A DNA stretch of 39,863 bases from Methanosarcina spelaei (GTDB lineage Archaea; Halobacteriota; Methanosarcinia; Methanosarcinales; Methanosarcinaceae), in contig NZ_LMVP01000190.1 in assembly GCF_002287235.1 (NCBI RefSeq), positions 1 through 39,863 of the forward strand, given 5' to 3'. Every line of letters begins with the position of its first letter. The first letter of the stretch is position 1. The notes below the pieces were generated by a model that saw nothing but the letters and a program-made list of their open reading frames with translations, was not told the DNA's origin and did no database searches. Below are positions 7,101 through 33,799 of this stretch, piece by piece. The translations under genes and the position numbers were made by a program.

Positions 7101-7506
7101 CTTACCGAAAGCGGGAAAAAGTAAAGTAAACGTTCCGGGTCCACCAATCTTTTTCAAAAAAGGCTTGAGCGAAAACCCAGTAACATTTGGATTTGAGAAT
7201 TATCCTCAAACCCTATCGGCGTGATAAACCGGCGCAACGGTTTGTATGAATAATCTTAATTTTCAGAAAAATTCTAATAGTAGGTAAATAGTTTTCAAAT
7301 ACAACAAAAAAATATTCTTAGATATGTTATTCTTAAGTATGTGATTCTTAAAGAAACTCTCCGCCATCCGGATTGTGTTTTTTTCTTTATTTATAGTTCT
7401 GTTTCCGGCTGGACAGAATAAAATTTATTAGTAAATAACCTTTGTTCTATTAGTCTTAAATGTTTCATATATTTCATTAATTGTTTCAAAAGTGCCTGGT
7501 ATTCTT
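7101..7506. other. Spacer upstream of the giant helicase gene
   Basis: No gene is seen. It contains a small hairpin (AAACCG at 7226-7231 with CGGTTT at 7238-7243), three loose copies of an ATTCTTAgatatgtt-like motif at about 7311-7349, and AT-rich stretches with TATA-like boxes closer to the helicase. Confidence 0.5.
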
Positions 7507-10500
7507 ATGGTAGACGTAGTTAAGGAATTGGAAGCCCTTAGGCAGAATTTGCTTGATCTGTCCCTTCGAAATAATCTTCTCAATTACCGCCCTTCCCAGA
7601 AGAGGACCATCTCGATTACAGGTAGGAAGCCAGAGGAAATTTACGCGCTCTTTGTTCTTCAGGAAAAATCAATGAGGTTCAGGGCAACAGCCCAGTTAAA
7701 AAAAGGCAGGAAAGCTGAAAATGAGGTTGAAGATGAAGCCTCAGAAAAGGAAAAACGGCTTTTGAAAACAATAGGAAATATTCTTGTCTCGGAAGATAAA
7801 CCTCAGACTTCCCGCTCCGAAACTTTTCTGGAAACCCCGGATGATATCGAAATTCTTGATAAAAAGCTTTTTTATGTTTTTAACCAGGCAAACTCCATAT
7901 TTGAAGAACAGGGATATCCTGTGCTCTATCTTGCGCTGGGTTTTCTGCAGTGGAGTGACAGCAGATCGACTATAAAATTCACGAAAGCCCCTCTGCTTCT
8001 TATTCCCGTTGAACTCAAACGCATAGGAAAAGGCCGAATTTTCAGTATACAGTGGACAGGAGACGAAATCTTCACTTCAATTACTCTCCAGGCAAAAATT
8101 AAAGAGTTTGGAATTGAGCTTCCTGAATTTGAAATGCCAGAGGATGCTGCAGGAGTAGAAAAATATTTCAGGGCTGTATCCAGAGAAATCCATGGAAAGA
8201 GAGACTGGAAGCTCCTGCCTGAGATCTGCCTTGATCTTTTTAATTTTAAGAAATTTGTTATGTATAAGGACCTGGACCCTGCAACCTGGCCTGAAGACAT
8301 GTCTCCTGCCAACCATCCATTGATCCAAAAAGTCTTTAATCCTGAAGACCCCAAATGTGAGATTTCCGGTTTCCTGGAAGAAGAAGTTGACCTGAAACTT
8401 CCAGTAAAGGACACTTACCAGATAATGGATGCCGATTCTTCCCAGATTGCAGTCATTGAAGATGTGAAAGCCGGGAAAGACCTGGTTGTTGAAGGGCCTC
8501 CAGGAACCGGCAAGTCCCAGACGATTGCAAATACAATTGCAGAACTTATAGCCCAGGGGAAAAGCGTACTTTTCGTAAGTGAAAAAATGGCTGCCCTTCA
8601 GGTTGTAAAAAGCAGGCTGGACTTTGCTGGCCTTGGAGAACTCTGCCTGGAGATTCACAGCAACCAGACCCGTAAAAAAGCCGTGCTTGAAGAACTGGAA
8701 AAGACCCTGAACCGCGAAGCTCCTGCCCCAGTACGTCCTGACAGGGATATTAATGAACTCGAAAAGTTAAAACATGAGCTCAACCAGTATGCACTGTCTC
8801 TTGGAGAACCTGCTGGAAAAATCTACCCAAGTCTCTATACTCTCTATGGTATAAGGGAAAAGACAAAGGCTTATTTTGAATCAAAAGGCCTGAAAATGCC
8901 CTTATATAAATTTCAAGAACCTGAAAGCTGGGATCCTGAAGCCTGGGCTAATGCAGAAGCTATTCTGGAAAAACTAAGTCCGATTCTTTCTTTTCTCGGT
9001 CCAGTCCGGAAAAATCTCTGGTACGGCTGCGATCCAGGGCTTGTACTGCCCTCGGATCTGGGAGAAATCGAAACTTTTACAGACGAATGCGCTGCGGCTT
9101 TTGAGACTCTCGAAGCAGCCATGAAAACCCTTAATGACCTTTCTGCAACCTCAAAGCCCGATACTCTCGAGGGAATTGCAACCGTAATTAATGCCGCAAA
9201 ATTCCTTGGAAACTCAAAACCCTTGCCTGAGAAAACTATTCAGAATTCGAAATGGGAACCCGAAAACTCAAAAAGCGAATCAGAAGCTCTGATTTCAAAA
9301 CTCAGAAAATACCTTGAGCTCAAAACTTTTGTGGACAAAACTTTTCGCCCTGAGATCTATGACCTTGATACTCCTGAATTCGAGGAACTTTCCGGTAGTC
9401 TCCTCAAACTTTTAAATTCGAAGTACAGGAAGCTCAAAAAAGAGATTTCAGCCTGTTATATCTCAAGAATGCCTTTCTGGGATAGTAAAATCCTGCTTGA
9501 CCTGAACAGCTTTTCAGAATATAAAACTCTAAGTCTGGAACTTGAAAATTCGAGTTCAGAAGGGAAGAAGTACTTTGGAGATTACTGGAAAGGTTTTGAA
9601 AGCAATCCTGCCCTGCTGGACGAGTACAGCCAATGGACAATTCTTTTCCGGCAGTACTTGAAAGAAGGCACTCTCACAGATAGGAGTTTCAGGCTTTTAG
9701 AAACCGGAATTGACAGCCTGGCCATCAAGTCTGCAGCCGACCATGTACTGACCGCAACGCAGGAGTTCCTGGAAGCATTTAAAAGAGTTGGAACTCGCAT
9801 AGGCGCAGATTTTGGAAAAATGTATCCAAAAGGCCTGGAAACTGCAAATCTAAATTCATTAAAAACCCAGGTAACCAGCTGGAAAAACGAGGCATCTTCC
9901 CTGGTGCTCTGGAGCCAGTATCTTGGTTATAGGCAGGCCTGTCTGGAAACAAAGGCAGCCCCGATAATTGAAGACCTTGAATCCGAAAAACTCGAAGTTT
10001 GTGATGCAATTCCTGCTTTTGAAGGCAACTACGCAGAGGTCTTGCTGAATCACGCCTTCAGAGAGAGACCTGCACTTTCAACTTTTATCCGGGAACTCCA
10101 CGAAGGCAAACTTGACAAGTTCAGAAAACTTGACAAAAAGGTCCTTCTGGAAAACAGAAAAAGGATAACATGTTCGGCTTATAAAGAAACCCCAAAATTG
10201 ACCTCAGGCGCGTCAAGAGCCTCGGAAGCGGGCATTTTGCTTAATGAGTTCAACAGGAAAAGGGGACATATGCCTATCCGTACCCTTATGAAAAAGGCAG
10301 GCGACCTGATCCAAAAAATCAAGCCATGTTTCCTGATGAGTCCACTCTCCATTGCCCAGTACCTTGATCCTAGAAGCACCCGTTTTGATGTGATTATCTT
10401 TGATGAAGCCAGCCAGGTCAGACCCGAAGATGCAGTTGGAGCTCTCCTGCGCGGAAAGCAGGTCGTAGTAATGGGAGACTCAAAACAACTTCCCCCAACC

Positions 10501-13191
10501 GATTTTTTTGATACCGTACTTGATTCTCCGGAAAGTGAGCCTGATGACTGTGTTACAGCCGGGGATATGGAGAGTATCCTGAATGTGTGCAAACGCAGTT
10601 TTCCGGTAAAGACCCTGCGCTGGCACTACAGGAGCAGGCATGAGTCCCTGATCGCAATCTCAAACCAGGAATTTTATGATAACCGTCTCTATGTTTATTC
10701 CTCACCCATGCAAAAGGACGAAAAACTCGGGCTGAAATTTATGCATCTTCCGGATGCGGTTTATGACAGAGGCAAAAGTGGAGTAAACCGGGTAGAGGCA
10801 AGAGCTATTGCAAGGGCGGTTTTCGAACAATTGAGCAGATATCCTGATAAAAGCCTGGGTGTCGGGACTTTCAATATAAAACAGCAGGAAGCTATTCAGA
10901 AAGAAATCGAGGCTCTACTTAAAGAAAATCCTGGACTTGATCTTAATTCGGGAAACGGAAAAGGTGAACACTTCTTTGTTAAGAATCTTGAGACCATCCA
11001 GGGCGATGAAAGGGATGTTATACTGTTGAGTGTAGGCTTTGGCTTTGACGGCAACCGAAAGCTTTCCCTTAACTTCGGCCCGCTTAATCGTGAGGGAGGG
11101 GAAAGGCGTCTGAATGTTCTTATCACAAGGGCCAGAGAAAAATGCGTTGTTTTTGCAAATTTTACATCAAGGGACCTGAAACTTGATGAAAACTCACCTT
11201 TCGGGCTTCGGGCACTTAAGGCTTTCCTTGAGTTTGCAGAGAGTGGCAGGCTTCCCTTACCTGCATACATTAGAGAAAAACTCGATTCACCTTTTGAAGA
11301 GACAGTTTACGATTTCCTGGTAGAAAACGGCTGCGAAGTCCACAGGCAGATCGGCTGTGCAGGGTACAAACTTGACCTTGCAGTTCCTGACCCATCCCAT
11401 CCAGGGAGGTACTTGCTTGGAATTGAGTGCGATGGAGCAAGCTATTATTCTCTGCATGTCGCACGGGACCGCGACCGCCTGCGCCAGCAGGTGCTTGAAG
11501 GGTTGGGTTGGAAAATTTACCGGGTATGGTCAACGGACTGGTACTTACATCCGAAAGAGAGCAGGGAAAAGCTGCTTAAGGTTGTGAAAATAACTGTAAA
11601 ACAGGCAAAAGTGCAGGCAAAAAACGATATAGTATCCGAAACTTCAAGGATTAAAGATCCTTCTGCCTGGGCTGAGTGTGTGAATCGAAGTCCTGTAGGT
11701 AGGCCTTCCGGAAAATTTTCCAGTTATCCTGCAAATCAGGTTTTGTCCCCAGTTCCTGCTTTGCCTGCAATGAATGCGGAGAGTAAAGACGGAGATGAAT
11801 TCGAAGGTGGGGATGAATTTGAAAATCAATTTTATAATAGATCCTGTTTTTCGGAAACTTTTGATGCTGAACTTCTTCCAGAGCCCTCCTTTGAAGTCGA
11901 AGCTGAAGAGCCTTATCCAGTTTTTAAACTGGAGGAAGGACTTACAACCTTCTCAGATATAGATTTCCTTCCAGAAATGGATATAAGAGCCAGGTCAATG
12001 GCTCTGGTAGCCGATGAAAATTCCTGCAAGAAGCCTGTAAGAAGATCAAAAAAATCAAAGATCCTCAAGTTCAGTGTAGATTCCCGCTATAAGGGAAACA
12101 AAGCCAAACTGATACCTGAACCAGAACCTGAGAAAATGAGTTTTTATCAGGCTTATCCTGAGATCGACTTCAGTGCAGTCCGTGAAAATAAGAAAAAACG
12201 CAGGCGACTTAATGAGTTTGCGTACATTTACGGCTCAGAAAGCTATTTTGAATCCGAGCCGGAATTCGAGGAAGAAGATTATGCAGATGGAAATAACAGT
12301 TACCCAGGGACATGGGACTCAGAAACTCAAAGTGAGCATGAAGCCGAGCCTGCAATTGAGCACGAAATAAAAAGGAAAACTGAAACCCGGTTAACTGAGC
12401 CTGCTCTCGGACATACGTTTGAAATCGAGGCCAGAACTCCAAAGACACCCCTATCTTTAATCCCGGCTGAAAAAACAGGGAAATTCTCTGAAAAACCTGG
12501 TATCGAAAGCTCCTTAGAACTCAGAGCCTGTAATACAGGGCCCGGAATTGTCGAAATCCTGGAAATTCCAGGAAAAAAGTCTGAACCGGATAATTCAAAA
12601 AAAGAAGATGAAAAGCTATCCGAAAAAACCAGTTCATTTGAAGCTTCCGTACCTCTTTACCAGGCCTGTCTTTCCTCAGGACTTACGAAAACCAGTGATC
12701 TTTCTGAGGTTTCGGATAAGCAGCTTGAAGAGGCAATTCTGCGAATTGTAGCGTGTGAAGGTCCCATTCACGCGCAACTCCTGCAGCAGCGAATAAAATC
12801 GAATACAGGAGTTTCCCGTATGCTCGGAAAAACCAAGCAGCGCATAGTTGATGTTGCAGCTCTTGCCGAAAGTTCTGGGAAAATCAGGGTCAAAGGTGAG
12901 TTCTACTGGCCGGTTTCGGAACCTGCCTGTCTTCTGCGCAGACGTGAGGGAGACGAATTTGCAAAAATCGAGTGGATCTGTGATGAGGAAATAAAAGAAG
13001 CTATCCGTTTTGTGCTATACAACCAGTATTCAACTCCTCTTGAAGATCTTATTGTCCAGACTTCGAGAGTGTTAGGGATAAAAACCACACGTCGAAACAC
13101 AAAGGAACGAATCGAAAAGCTTGTACAGGCAGGAATAAAGAATGAGGAGCTAACTATCATGCCTAATGAAATGATTTATTTCTTTGAATAA
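7507..13191 (+). CDS. DUF4011 SF1 helicase with PD-(D/E)XK nuclease and DUF3320-like domains
   Basis: A protein of about 1,894 residues. An N-terminal DUF4011-type region opens with LRQNLLDLSLRNNLLNYRP. The SF1 helicase motifs follow: Walker A GPPGTGKS at 330-337, motif II DEAS at 966, motif III MGDSKQLPP at 989, ETIQGDERDVILLS at 1162 and NVLITRAR at 1203. Motifs I and II are over 600 residues apart, so a long helical insert sits inside the motor. Residues 1260-1342 look like a Vsr/MTES_1575-type PD-(D/E)XK nuclease (FEETVYDFL, KLDLAV, GIECDG, then GWKIYRVWSTDW). About 400 acidic, repetitive residues follow, then a DUF3320-like end (1738-1805). This architecture is known from large helicases of prokaryotic genomes, some in defence islands; the role here is inferred. 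The ATG at 7507 is preferred over GTG at 7492, without a strong ribosome binding site. Confidence 0.88.
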   Translation: MVDVVKELEALRQNLLDLSLRNNLLNYRPSQKRTISITGRKPEEIYALFVLQEKSMRFRATAQLKKGRKAENEVEDEASEKEKRLLKTIGNILVSEDKPQTSRSETFLETPDDIEILDKKLFYVFNQANSIFEEQGYPVLYLALGFLQWSDSRSTIKFTKAPLLLIPVELKRIGKGRIFSIQWTGDEIFTSITLQAKIKEFGIELPEFEMPEDAAGVEKYFRAVSREIHGKRDWKLLPEICLDLFNFKKFVMYKDLDPATWPEDMSPANHPLIQKVFNPEDPKCEISGFLEEEVDLKLPVKDTYQIMDADSSQIAVIEDVKAGKDLVVEGPPGTGKSQTIANTIAELIAQGKSVLFVSEKMAALQVVKSRLDFAGLGELCLEIHSNQTRKKAVLEELEKTLNREAPAPVRPDRDINELEKLKHELNQYALSLGEPAGKIYPSLYTLYGIREKTKAYFESKGLKMPLYKFQEPESWDPEAWANAEAILEKLSPILSFLGPVRKNLWYGCDPGLVLPSDLGEIETFTDECAAAFETLEAAMKTLNDLSATSKPDTLEGIATVINAAKFLGNSKPLPEKTIQNSKWEPENSKSESEALISKLRKYLELKTFVDKTFRPEIYDLDTPEFEELSGSLLKLLNSKYRKLKKEISACYISRMPFWDSKILLDLNSFSEYKTLSLELENSSSEGKKYFGDYWKGFESNPALLDEYSQWTILFRQYLKEGTLTDRSFRLLETGIDSLAIKSAADHVLTATQEFLEAFKRVGTRIGADFGKMYPKGLETANLNSLKTQVTSWKNEASSLVLWSQYLGYRQACLETKAAPIIEDLESEKLEVCDAIPAFEGNYAEVLLNHAFRERPALSTFIRELHEGKLDKFRKLDKKVLLENRKRITCSAYKETPKLTSGASRASEAGILLNEFNRKRGHMPIRTLMKKAGDLIQKIKPCFLMSPLSIAQYLDPRSTRFDVIIFDEASQVRPEDAVGALLRGKQVVVMGDSKQLPPTDFFDTVLDSPESEPDDCVTAGDMESILNVCKRSFPVKTLRWHYRSRHESLIAISNQEFYDNRLYVYSSPMQKDEKLGLKFMHLPDAVYDRGKSGVNRVEARAIARAVFEQLSRYPDKSLGVGTFNIKQQEAIQKEIEALLKENPGLDLNSGNGKGEHFFVKNLETIQGDERDVILLSVGFGFDGNRKLSLNFGPLNREGGERRLNVLITRAREKCVVFANFTSRDLKLDENSPFGLRALKAFLEFAESGRLPLPAYIREKLDSPFEETVYDFLVENGCEVHRQIGCAGYKLDLAVPDPSHPGRYLLGIECDGASYYSLHVARDRDRLRQQVLEGLGWKIYRVWSTDWYLHPKESREKLLKVVKITVKQAKVQAKNDIVSETSRIKDPSAWAECVNRSPVGRPSGKFSSYPANQVLSPVPALPAMNAESKDGDEFEGGDEFENQFYNRSCFSETFDAELLPEPSFEVEAEEPYPVFKLEEGLTTFSDIDFLPEMDIRARSMALVADENSCKKPVRRSKKSKILKFSVDSRYKGNKAKLIPEPEPEKMSFYQAYPEIDFSAVRENKKKRRRLNEFAYIYGSESYFESEPEFEEEDYADGNNSYPGTWDSETQSEHEAEPAIEHEIKRKTETRLTEPALGHTFEIEARTPKTPLSLIPAEKTGKFSEKPGIESSLELRACNTGPGIVEILEIPGKKSEPDNSKKEDEKLSEKTSSFEASVPLYQACLSSGLTKTSDLSEVSDKQLEEAILRIVACEGPIHAQLLQQRIKSNTGVSRMLGKTKQRIVDVAALAESSGKIRVKGEFYWPVSEPACLLRRREGDEFAKIEWICDEEIKEAIRFVLYNQYSTPLEDLIVQTSRVLGIKTTRRNTKERIEKLVQAGIKNEELTIMPNEMIYFFE

Positions 13192-30637: not shown

Positions 30638-30658
30638 CCTCCTGGGGTAATAAGGAGG
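30638..30658 (+). promoter_or_regulatory. Hairpin that masks the ribosome binding site
   Basis: CCTCCT (30638-30643) is the exact complement of AGGAGG (30653-30658), the ribosome binding site of the peptidase gene starting at 30665. The loop is nine bases. In RNA this would close the site unless opened by a translating ribosome, a protein or a shift in temperature. It is seen in the sequence; the regulatory role is inferred. Confidence 0.45.
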
Positions 30659-30664
30659 ATAAAT

Positions 30665-32111
30665 ATGAATCGTAATAAAATTGGAATAAGTATACTTGTT
30701 TTAGCAACTCTGCTGGTTGGTATAACATTGATACCTGCAGCAAGTGCACAGAAAGAGGATAATTACTCTGTAACTGTTGAGGAAGCTTTTAAACATGCTA
30801 ATGCAAACATGATAAGTTTTATAGCAGCCAATACACCAGGCTTTGAAAATTGGACAGGGGCATCTATTAATCCCAAACCAATTGAGCTTTATGACATAAA
30901 TGGTAAAAAATTATTTTATCAATTCTCAGTATATAAGACTCAGTACCAAAATCTAGTGATGAATGTAAAACTCAAAATCACTAGATTTTATAAATGGTCA
31001 CCATCCATGTAATACAACTTAGTGATTCAAGTCTTTAGATAGCGAATATCGATTTTGATAAAAACTGGATTCTTCTTGCTAATTAAGACTTTCTATCAAA
31101 AATGCAAAAATCACTGGATTTTGGAACAGAGTCGTATATAAAGAAAAGAAATTAACAGGTACAATCGACGTTTGTGCCGATAAAACGCTGGGACCTTCTA
31201 TCTACGATATTAAATTTGATCCTAAACCTTATAAATTGGCTGAAGCCATGAAAAAATCAATCGAAATAGCCAAAAGTGAATATTCAGATGGAAAAATCAA
31301 ATCAACCAATTTGGTTGTATACAGCTATCCGAGTATAGGTGCAATGACCATAGTAAAAGACAAGACTACTGGAGTTGAACATCGGATATTTGTAGATGCA
31401 TACACCCTTGAAGAGGTCGAAGATAAACCAGCAACTGAAACCAAACCTGGAGTTTGGTCAATGTATGACCAGATTTTGAAGTCTGGAAAGGAAAACAATT
31501 TAAAAGAATGGCAAAAAAGTGATGAACGTGCCAAATCTATAGAACAAGCAGCAACTAATAAAGGAGTTAATATTAATGCTGCAGTTACTGAAGAAAATAT
31601 TAAAAAACTCAGTAGTGATGCAATAGTTCTAAGTTCATTTACAGGTAAAATACTTGATATTAACGGTATTGGACAAGAACGAAGTGTTTTTTGTGGTCCA
31701 GCATGTATCCGAATGGTTTGTAAATATTATAATAAACCGACTCCCATCCCTACACAGGAAACAATCTATATGGGTGATGGACTGTGGAGTTGGAGTCCTT
31801 ATTCTCCTCCATATTCATCTGGGCTCTCAGCTGATGATATTGTAGAATGGGCTACATATCGATGGGAGAAAACGGGAACTATAGCTACTAGCTTTTCTAA
31901 TAGTGTCGCTATATCAGAAATTGAAAACAATAGACCATTTTTCAGTATGATTCCAAATCATTTTCGACTTTGTAAAGGATACATAGTTCAAGACGGATAT
32001 ACATATTTACGTCTTAATGATCCAGAGCCTACAGGTTCGACCTATGGTAATCCAGGGTTACTTGAACGCACATACGGCAGTTCAGAAATGAAACGTATAT
32101 ATGTAAGGTAA
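30665..32111 (+). pseudogene. C39-like secreted cysteine peptidase, split by a MITE insertion
   Basis: The gene is broken into two frames: 30665-31012 and a second part that resumes at 31134. Part one has a signal peptide (ISILVLATLLVGITLIPA, then ASAQ) and the start of a PepSY-like pro-region. Part two continues the pro-region and has a C39-like peptidase domain with the nucleophile region SVFCGPACIRMV after Gln, a likely His in PNHFRL, and RLNDPEP. Between them lies a 197-bp element flanked by GTATATAA. Removing it with one copy of GTATATAA joins SVYK to EKKLTGTIDV in one frame and gives a 413-residue protein. The present reading ends 26 codons into the insert. A TTG at 31236 could start a truncated product, but without a signal peptide it would not be secreted. 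Confidence 0.88.
30937..31133. mobile_element. 197-bp MITE-like element inside the peptidase gene
   Basis: Ends are inverted repeats of about 24 bp with three mismatches: the left starts GACTCAGTACCAAAATC and the complement of the right starts GACTCTGTTCCAAAATC, both going on to AGTGAT. The exact 8-bp target duplication GTATATAA is at 30929-30936 and 31134-31141. The interior has a further inverted copy of AAAATCTAGTGAT and no coding frame. The parent element is not in this window. Confidence 0.88.
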
Positions 32112-32270: not shown

Positions 32271-33521
32271 ATGAGTCCTAAGTTGGGATTTAAAATGGAA
32301 GAAATAACATATGATAAAACATATCGAAAGCATACTCTCATAAGAGTTTTGGAAATAACTTCACTTACGATTTTAGTATTGGCTGGTGTAGCAAGTGCAG
32401 CTCCATTTGCATATGTGACAAATCTGGGGAATTATTCTAACGATACAAATTATAATGGTGCTATCCCGACTCCTAGTGTCGCTGTAATTGACACAGCAAC
32501 TAACAATATTACAGCCAGAGTGCCTCTCGGCGATGGGTGGCCTGTGGGAGTTGCAGTCAACCCTGAAGGAACAAAGTTATATGTAGCGTCCGCAACTATA
32601 GACGACGTCTGCATTGTTTATGTAATTGACACAGCCGCAAACACGGTCAATACCAAAGTGAATATCAGAAGTAGTTATCCTTCGGGAATTACATTTAACC
32701 CTGCAGGAACAAGAGTTTATGTGACGAAGCAGCGAGACAACACCGATATCTCTGTAATCAACCCAGCGACAAATACCTTAATGGCACCGATTATTGTGGG
32801 GCCGAGTACTTATGATATTGCATTTACACCGGATGGAAAAAAAATCTATGCTGCAAACAGTCACAACAACACTATTTACATAATTGATGCGGCTACAAAC
32901 AAAGTTACAGCCAATATACCTGTAGGAGACAGTCCTTATGAAGTTGTAGTCACACCGGACGGAAAAAAAGTATACGTACCTAACTATAACAGCAGCACTG
33001 TGTCTGTAATTGACACCGCCACTGATAATGTTACAGCAACCGTACCTGTAGGAGACTCGCCTCATCGTGTTGCAGTTACTTCTGATGGAAATAAAGTATA
33101 TGTAGCTAACAACGACACTGTCTCTGTAATTGATACAGCCACAGATACTGTAATAGCCACCGTGCCTGTAGGAGCTTTTTCTCGTGAAATTGTAATCAGT
33201 CCAGATGGAAGTAAGGTATATTTAGGAAACTTATACAATAATAGTGTCACTGTAATTAATACAAAAACAAACACCGTCACAGCCAGAGTGCCTGTAGGAG
33301 AATGGCCCATGGGAATTGCAGTCACACCGGACGGAACAAAGGTATATGTGGCAAACGCCGAAAGTGACAATGTCTCAGTGATTGACACAGCCACAGACAC
33401 TGTTATAGCTACGGTGAATGCAGGAATCTATCCTACTGGAGTTGTAATTGTGCCTTTTATGGACTCTAATATGAGTGCTCAAAGCACAGAGGCAGTCTCA
33501 AATGCAACTGAAGATACATAA
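32271..33521 (+). CDS. YVTN beta-propeller surface protein, cut short before its anchor
   Basis: A 416-residue exported protein made of about nine YVTN beta-propeller units of some 42 residues (PDGKKVYVPNYNSSTVSVID, then TATDNVTATVPVGDSP). An N-terminal hydrophobic segment ends ASAAPFA, as in signal peptides. Archaeal YVTN proteins are surface-layer or adhesion components. The frame stops at TAA (33519-33521) just after a Thr/Ser-rich linker. In the same frame, past the stop, lie 48 more codons that hold a Ser-rich spacer and a PGF-CTERM-type anchor. The present protein should be exported and lost from the surface. The start may be ATG 32271 or ATG 32295, which has GGGA upstream. The preceding spacer holds a long inverted repeat. 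Confidence 0.85.
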   Translation: MSPKLGFKMEEITYDKTYRKHTLIRVLEITSLTILVLAGVASAAPFAYVTNLGNYSNDTNYNGAIPTPSVAVIDTATNNITARVPLGDGWPVGVAVNPEGTKLYVASATIDDVCIVYVIDTAANTVNTKVNIRSSYPSGITFNPAGTRVYVTKQRDNTDISVINPATNTLMAPIIVGPSTYDIAFTPDGKKIYAANSHNNTIYIIDAATNKVTANIPVGDSPYEVVVTPDGKKVYVPNYNSSTVSVIDTATDNVTATVPVGDSPHRVAVTSDGNKVYVANNDTVSVIDTATDTVIATVPVGAFSREIVISPDGSKVYLGNLYNNSVTVINTKTNTVTARVPVGEWPMGIAVTPDGTKVYVANAESDNVSVIDTATDTVIATVNAGIYPTGVVIVPFMDSNMSAQSTEAVSNATEDT

Positions 33522-33668
33522 GTTGAAAGATCTAATCTATCATCTTCTGAATCTGATAATGATAGCAGCTCAAGTGGAAACGAATCAAGTAAAAACTTTA
33601 CACCAGGCTTTAGTTTATTGGGAGGCTTGATCTGTCTTTATGGAGTGTGGAAGTTCAGGGAGAAGTAA
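33522..33668 (+). pseudogene. Detached PGF-CTERM-type surface anchor
   Basis: Directly after the TAA of the beta-propeller gene, in the same frame, 48 codons run to a TAA at 33666-33668. They read as a Ser/Asn/Asp-rich stretch, then FTPGFSLLGGLICLYGVWKF and REK. The TPGF motif, hydrophobic helix and basic end are those of PGF-CTERM tails that archaeosortase A processes and anchors. It is a remnant cut off by one nonsense change: a C-to-T change from CAA would give this TAA. Confidence 0.8.
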
Positions 33669-33799
33669 TACAGGGCTTGGATTGCCAGACAGCTGAATGG
33701 CATAATGTCTTTTTGCTTGTTTGTTTTCAGCCTCTTGAAGAAAAAAGAAGGGCTAATCCCGCCATTTTAATGCTGTTATCAAAATTCTCAGTCTAGTCT

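Follow-up and report, generated by a model that had tools for sequence, protein, structure and literature searches.

In the window, the whole 39,863-nt stretch of DNA analyzed here (contig C190 of a draft Methanosarcina assembly of 5,088,600 bases in 559 contigs), a nonsense allele, probably a recent one, very likely deprives a propeller surface protein of its anchor-like tail; the protein belongs to a redundant and decay-prone family. On the best reading of the comparative data, the allele is species or strain specific.

The stop codon and the gene that carries it

The gene is an open reading frame on the forward strand at 32271-33521, which encodes 416 amino acids and is terminated by the TAA at 33519-33521 (codon 417). 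Beyond this codon, 48 in-frame codons remain open (33522-33665) and encode VERSNLSSSESDNDSSSSGNESSKNFTPGFSLLGGLICLYGVWKFREK, and the next stop is a TAA at 33666-33668. A reading made from the sequence only had reported this arrangement, and both its coordinates and its tail peptide were confirmed on the sequence. The conserved start of the gene is probably the ATG at 32295 (MEEITYDK...) rather than position 32271, because the codons upstream are not conserved as a start in relatives. The features of the gene are as follows.

32295..32402, forward strand: signal-peptide-like N terminus, counted from the probable conserved start; MEEITYDK...LIRVLEITSLTILVLAGVASA is conserved in counterparts, which have no upstream ATG
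32403..33455, forward strand: YVTN-type beta-propeller body, about residues 45-395 (TIGR02276, PDB 1l0q, AlphaFold2 model)
33519..33521, forward strand: TAA in frame; GAA is its simplest source, by a G-to-T change
33522..33599, forward strand: severed Ser/Asn-rich spacer, frame kept, disordered in the AlphaFold2 model
33600..33665, forward strand: severed anchor-like tail with TPGF, a hydrophobic segment (predicted helix at residues 451-464), and a basic end; E of 2.4e-17 to profile A1, which was built from 11 tails including this one

A search of 31 Methanosarcina genomes yielded 11 counterparts (L010 to L020) that could be read across the stop position and that are 77 to 94% identical to the window gene. 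Because several family members occur in each genome, L010 and others could be orthologs or close paralogs, and we therefore prefer the term "counterpart." All 11 counterparts run on through the stop position into the same tail, and none of these homologs ends there, an outcome on which the sequence-only reading had made its claim depend. The open 48-codon tail is beyond chance, since in the counterparts the same body continues into it in frame. The codon at the stop position is GAA in the three closest counterparts (L010, L011, and L012) and GGA or GGG in seven, while L019 has a gap. The ancestral change was therefore most simply GAA to TAA, a G-to-T substitution on the lineage leading to this genome. 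The earlier proposal of a single-base origin holds in that one substitution is sufficient, but the source codon that it named, CAA, is rejected in favor of the GAA of the closest relatives. L011 (genome G013) does contain a TAA within its match; this lies at another position, and the L011 frame continues through the tail. Two other ways of translating the tail were set aside. Pyrrolysine insertion is not the answer, as the earlier reading had already pointed out, since the codon is TAA, and independent translation of the tail was rejected, as the tail lacks an in-frame ATG or GTG and its first in-frame TTG falls within the hydrophobic part.

The body of the protein matches TIGR02276 with an E value of 3.4e-93 and a score of 305.4 bits (cutoff, 27.85) over eight repeat stretches, and, of the solved structures, PDB 1l0q, whose deposited name is "Surface layer protein," matches its sequence best (E of 7.4e-71). 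An AlphaFold2 model, for which the input was the read-through translation together with eight counterparts, predicts beta strands in series at residues 46-394, mostly with pLDDT of >85, followed by disorder from residue 398 and a single helix of 14 residues (451-464) that is found in the severed tail only. The repeats above the cutoff and the predicted propeller fold place the protein among the YVTN beta-propellers. Since the stop at codon 417 lies past the strands, the model implies that the propeller would be left whole and that the spacer and the helix would be removed. The protein thus resembles YVTN propeller surface proteins (TIGR02276; 1l0q) in its repeat family, in its modeled fold, and in its export-signal-like N terminus, and it differs from them in that the window allele is without a C-terminal tail, owing to the stop.

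The severed tail as a candidate anchor

In Haloferax volcanii, substrates of the archaeosortase ArtA carry a PGF motif, a hydrophobic domain, and positive charges (PMC7157517). The same layout of PGF motif, hydrophobic segment, and basic C-terminal end is present in TPGFSLLGGLICLYGVWKFREK, which the window allele would translate only by reading through the stop, and T, P, G, and F are invariant in the 11 tails along with several other positions. However, neither TIGR04126 nor PF18204 matched the window tail, the L010 tail, or a consensus-like tail at E values up to 10, and a TIGR04126 search of the window's own genome did not match the window tail. Among control tails from the same genome, one was matched by both TIGR04126 and PF18204, and another was matched by PF18204. 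The label "PGF-CTERM" given by the sequence-only reading therefore fits the layout of the tail, but membership is not supported by the curated models, both of which miss it.

Archaeosortase A is encoded in this genome (TIGR04125, 254.8 bits against a cutoff of 75) and in 30 of the 31 Methanosarcina genomes, whereas a second exosortase family (PF09721) was not found in this genome. M. acetivorans, the control genome of the archaeosortase search, has ArtA as well. The window tail thus has in common with PGF-CTERM/ArtA tails the tripartite layout and the presence of ArtA in the same genome. It differs from them in being missed by the curated models, in an invariant Cys, and in the shortness of its hydrophobic helix, and processing by ArtA is putative. 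The predicted helix, at 14 residues, counts against the anchor reading. Taken together, the sequence comparisons indicate that the tail is a Methanosarcina variant that is PGF-CTERM-like by layout and a candidate anchor.

Searching with profile A1 at E of ≤1e-6 recovered 10 tails in this genome and 130 tails in 26 of the 31 genomes, on propellers and on other kinds of body. With 130 copies on several kinds of body and tail dN/dS ratios of 0.13 to 0.31 in the pairs computed, the tail is, as judged from these comparisons, a real module. This variant occurs widely across the genus, and since the curated models fail to pick it up, anchored Methanosarcina surface proteins have probably been undercounted.

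Severed tails across the genus and the origin of the allele

By manual count, 21 of the 130 tails lie in open frames of <130 amino acids. Three of these are at contig ends (G011:C5, G026:C157:27010, and G022:C182) and were set aside, which leaves about 18 severed tails among 127 assessable ones, nearly all of them in decayed genes (most of the loci were fetched). Besides the window gene, only one inspected short-frame tail has a full body. This locus, L101 (G013:C25:131950-134500), is a propeller paralog from a metagenome-assembled genome of another species, in which the tail is split off by a frameshift, apparently the deletion of a single A from a run of As, that falls in the spacer as the stop does in the window. 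The other inspected detached tails are remnants whose bodies are missing or degenerate or that carry frameshifts or insertions; a further locus from a metagenome-assembled genome, L046, has an altered tail end that looks frameshifted. No clean stop recurs among the detached tails inspected elsewhere in the genus. Detachment of the tail is thus common as decay, and a clean single nonsense codon is unique to the window in this set.

Tails that are orphaned or degenerate, with no body next to them, were also seen at L102 (G000:C537) and L113 (G027:C67) and at L110, L115, and L120. Within each of these two groups, the surroundings look alike between different genomes.

In our preferred account, a Glu codon of the spacer that joins the propeller to a C-terminal anchor became TAA through a G-to-T change. 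The shortened protein would still be exported and folded, but the product would offer no TPGF, hydrophobic, and basic tail for use by archaeosortase A or the membrane and, with the tail absent, would no longer be membrane anchored. The earlier claim that the protein is released and not anchored is accordingly retained in part: anchoring would be lost if the tail is the anchor, while S-layer or other contacts could still hold the product. Because the family is large, partly redundant, and fast changing, with repeated loss of tails and bodies, the window gene most likely represents a loss of the anchor that is tolerated and not a regulated switch. It resembles other nonsense-truncated surface protein alleles and pseudogenes in having a single stop in one lineage with intact counterparts, and it differs from them in that only the tail is gone and the folded domain is whole.

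A broader reading, which we regard as unlikely, holds that the genus has its own tail variant, unseen by the PGF-CTERM models, that serves as an exchangeable anchor on many surface proteins, that lineages repeatedly free anchored proteins by severing the tail from the body, and that the window stop is a clean recent example. Taken alone, the allele is a single severed connection in a single gene. It also provides a natural test of the tail variant as an anchor, in that the same propeller occurs with the tail in relatives and without it in the window genome.

An error of sequencing or assembly is an improbable source of the stop. The genome is a draft, and its fragmentation into 559 contigs leaves some room for such an error. 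However, the stop is a substitution, not a homopolymer indel, and it lies in unique sequence: the sequence at the stop site is present once in the whole assembly, with no second copy or mixed allele of the site in this assembly. A reported Illumina depth of 137x for the 5.1-Mb genome of M. spelaei MC-15 (PMC5563889) also argues against an error, if the assembly is that of this strain.

The nonsense allele as a tolerated loss can also be set against selection for the shortened free form, by which an anchored protein would have turned into a secreted one. Between the window gene and L010, dN/dS is 0.50 for the body and 0.20 for the tail, ratios that rest on small counts, and the window gene and L010 differ from each of five outgroups by similar numbers of amino acids (36/33, 47/46, 66/56, 72/72, and 78/81, respectively). 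The body in the window lineage therefore shows no clear acceleration in these comparisons, as would be consistent with a stop of recent origin, with a body that has kept its use, or with both, the outgroup comparison being unable to tell the two apart. An intact body that has not evolved clearly faster than its closest counterpart, together with a propeller predicted to be complete, speaks for selection for release, but recency alone accounts for the intact body, and elsewhere in the genus the detachment of tails is mostly a matter of simple decay. We consider selected release quite improbable.

For all pairs with the window gene, synonymous divergence of the tail exceeds that of the body several-fold (0.30 versus 0.05 with L010), and the window anchor segment is closest to that of L014. 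Both observations may possibly reflect mosaic exchange of bodies or tails.

The sequence-only reading had further suggested read-through of the stop or phase-variation-like loss of anchoring. Programmed read-through or suppression of the TAA would leave most of the protein free and a small part of it anchored, and the severed tail is indeed open, with 3 of its 48 residues unique to the window and no clear excess of lineage-specific changes. An open tail is expected anyway if the mutation is young, and beyond it we found nothing in favor of the suggestion. Programmed read-through would show as a stop conserved together with its extension, but 0 of the 11 counterparts have a stop at this position, and a conserved read-through site is therefore excluded. 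An imperfect repeat past the stop (33537-33565) is identical in L010, in which the codon is a sense codon, and a search of the literature for UAA read-through in archaea turned up, in titles and opening parts of abstracts, nothing relevant to the site. Read-through is thus very improbable. Equally remote is a switch of anchoring between alleles or paralogs, whether phase-variation-like or recombinational. The many family members, the L101 tail split off at a run of As, and the hint of mosaic exchange in the synonymous divergence might speak for such a switch, but it is left without a mechanism by a point substitution at a single-copy site with no slippable repeat (region 33440-33680). Nor does the genome contain another copy that is nearly identical, the best paralog being ~51% identical over the aligned part.

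Other features of the window

Upstream of the propeller gene, a neighboring C39-peptidase-like gene (about 30650-32108), whole in L014 and L017, is split by an element of ~197 bp at 30937-31133 whose terminal inverted repeats are imperfect and whose target duplication is 8 bp long (gtatataa). The 188-bp core of this element has at least 41 copies in this genome, 23 identical and 18 at 96%, and by these sequence features the element is MITE-like and recently active. Elsewhere in the window, 7492-13188 encodes a protein of 1,899 amino acids with a defense-like domain set that comprises DUF4011, AAA helicase-type domains, an MTES_1575 nuclease, and DUF3320.
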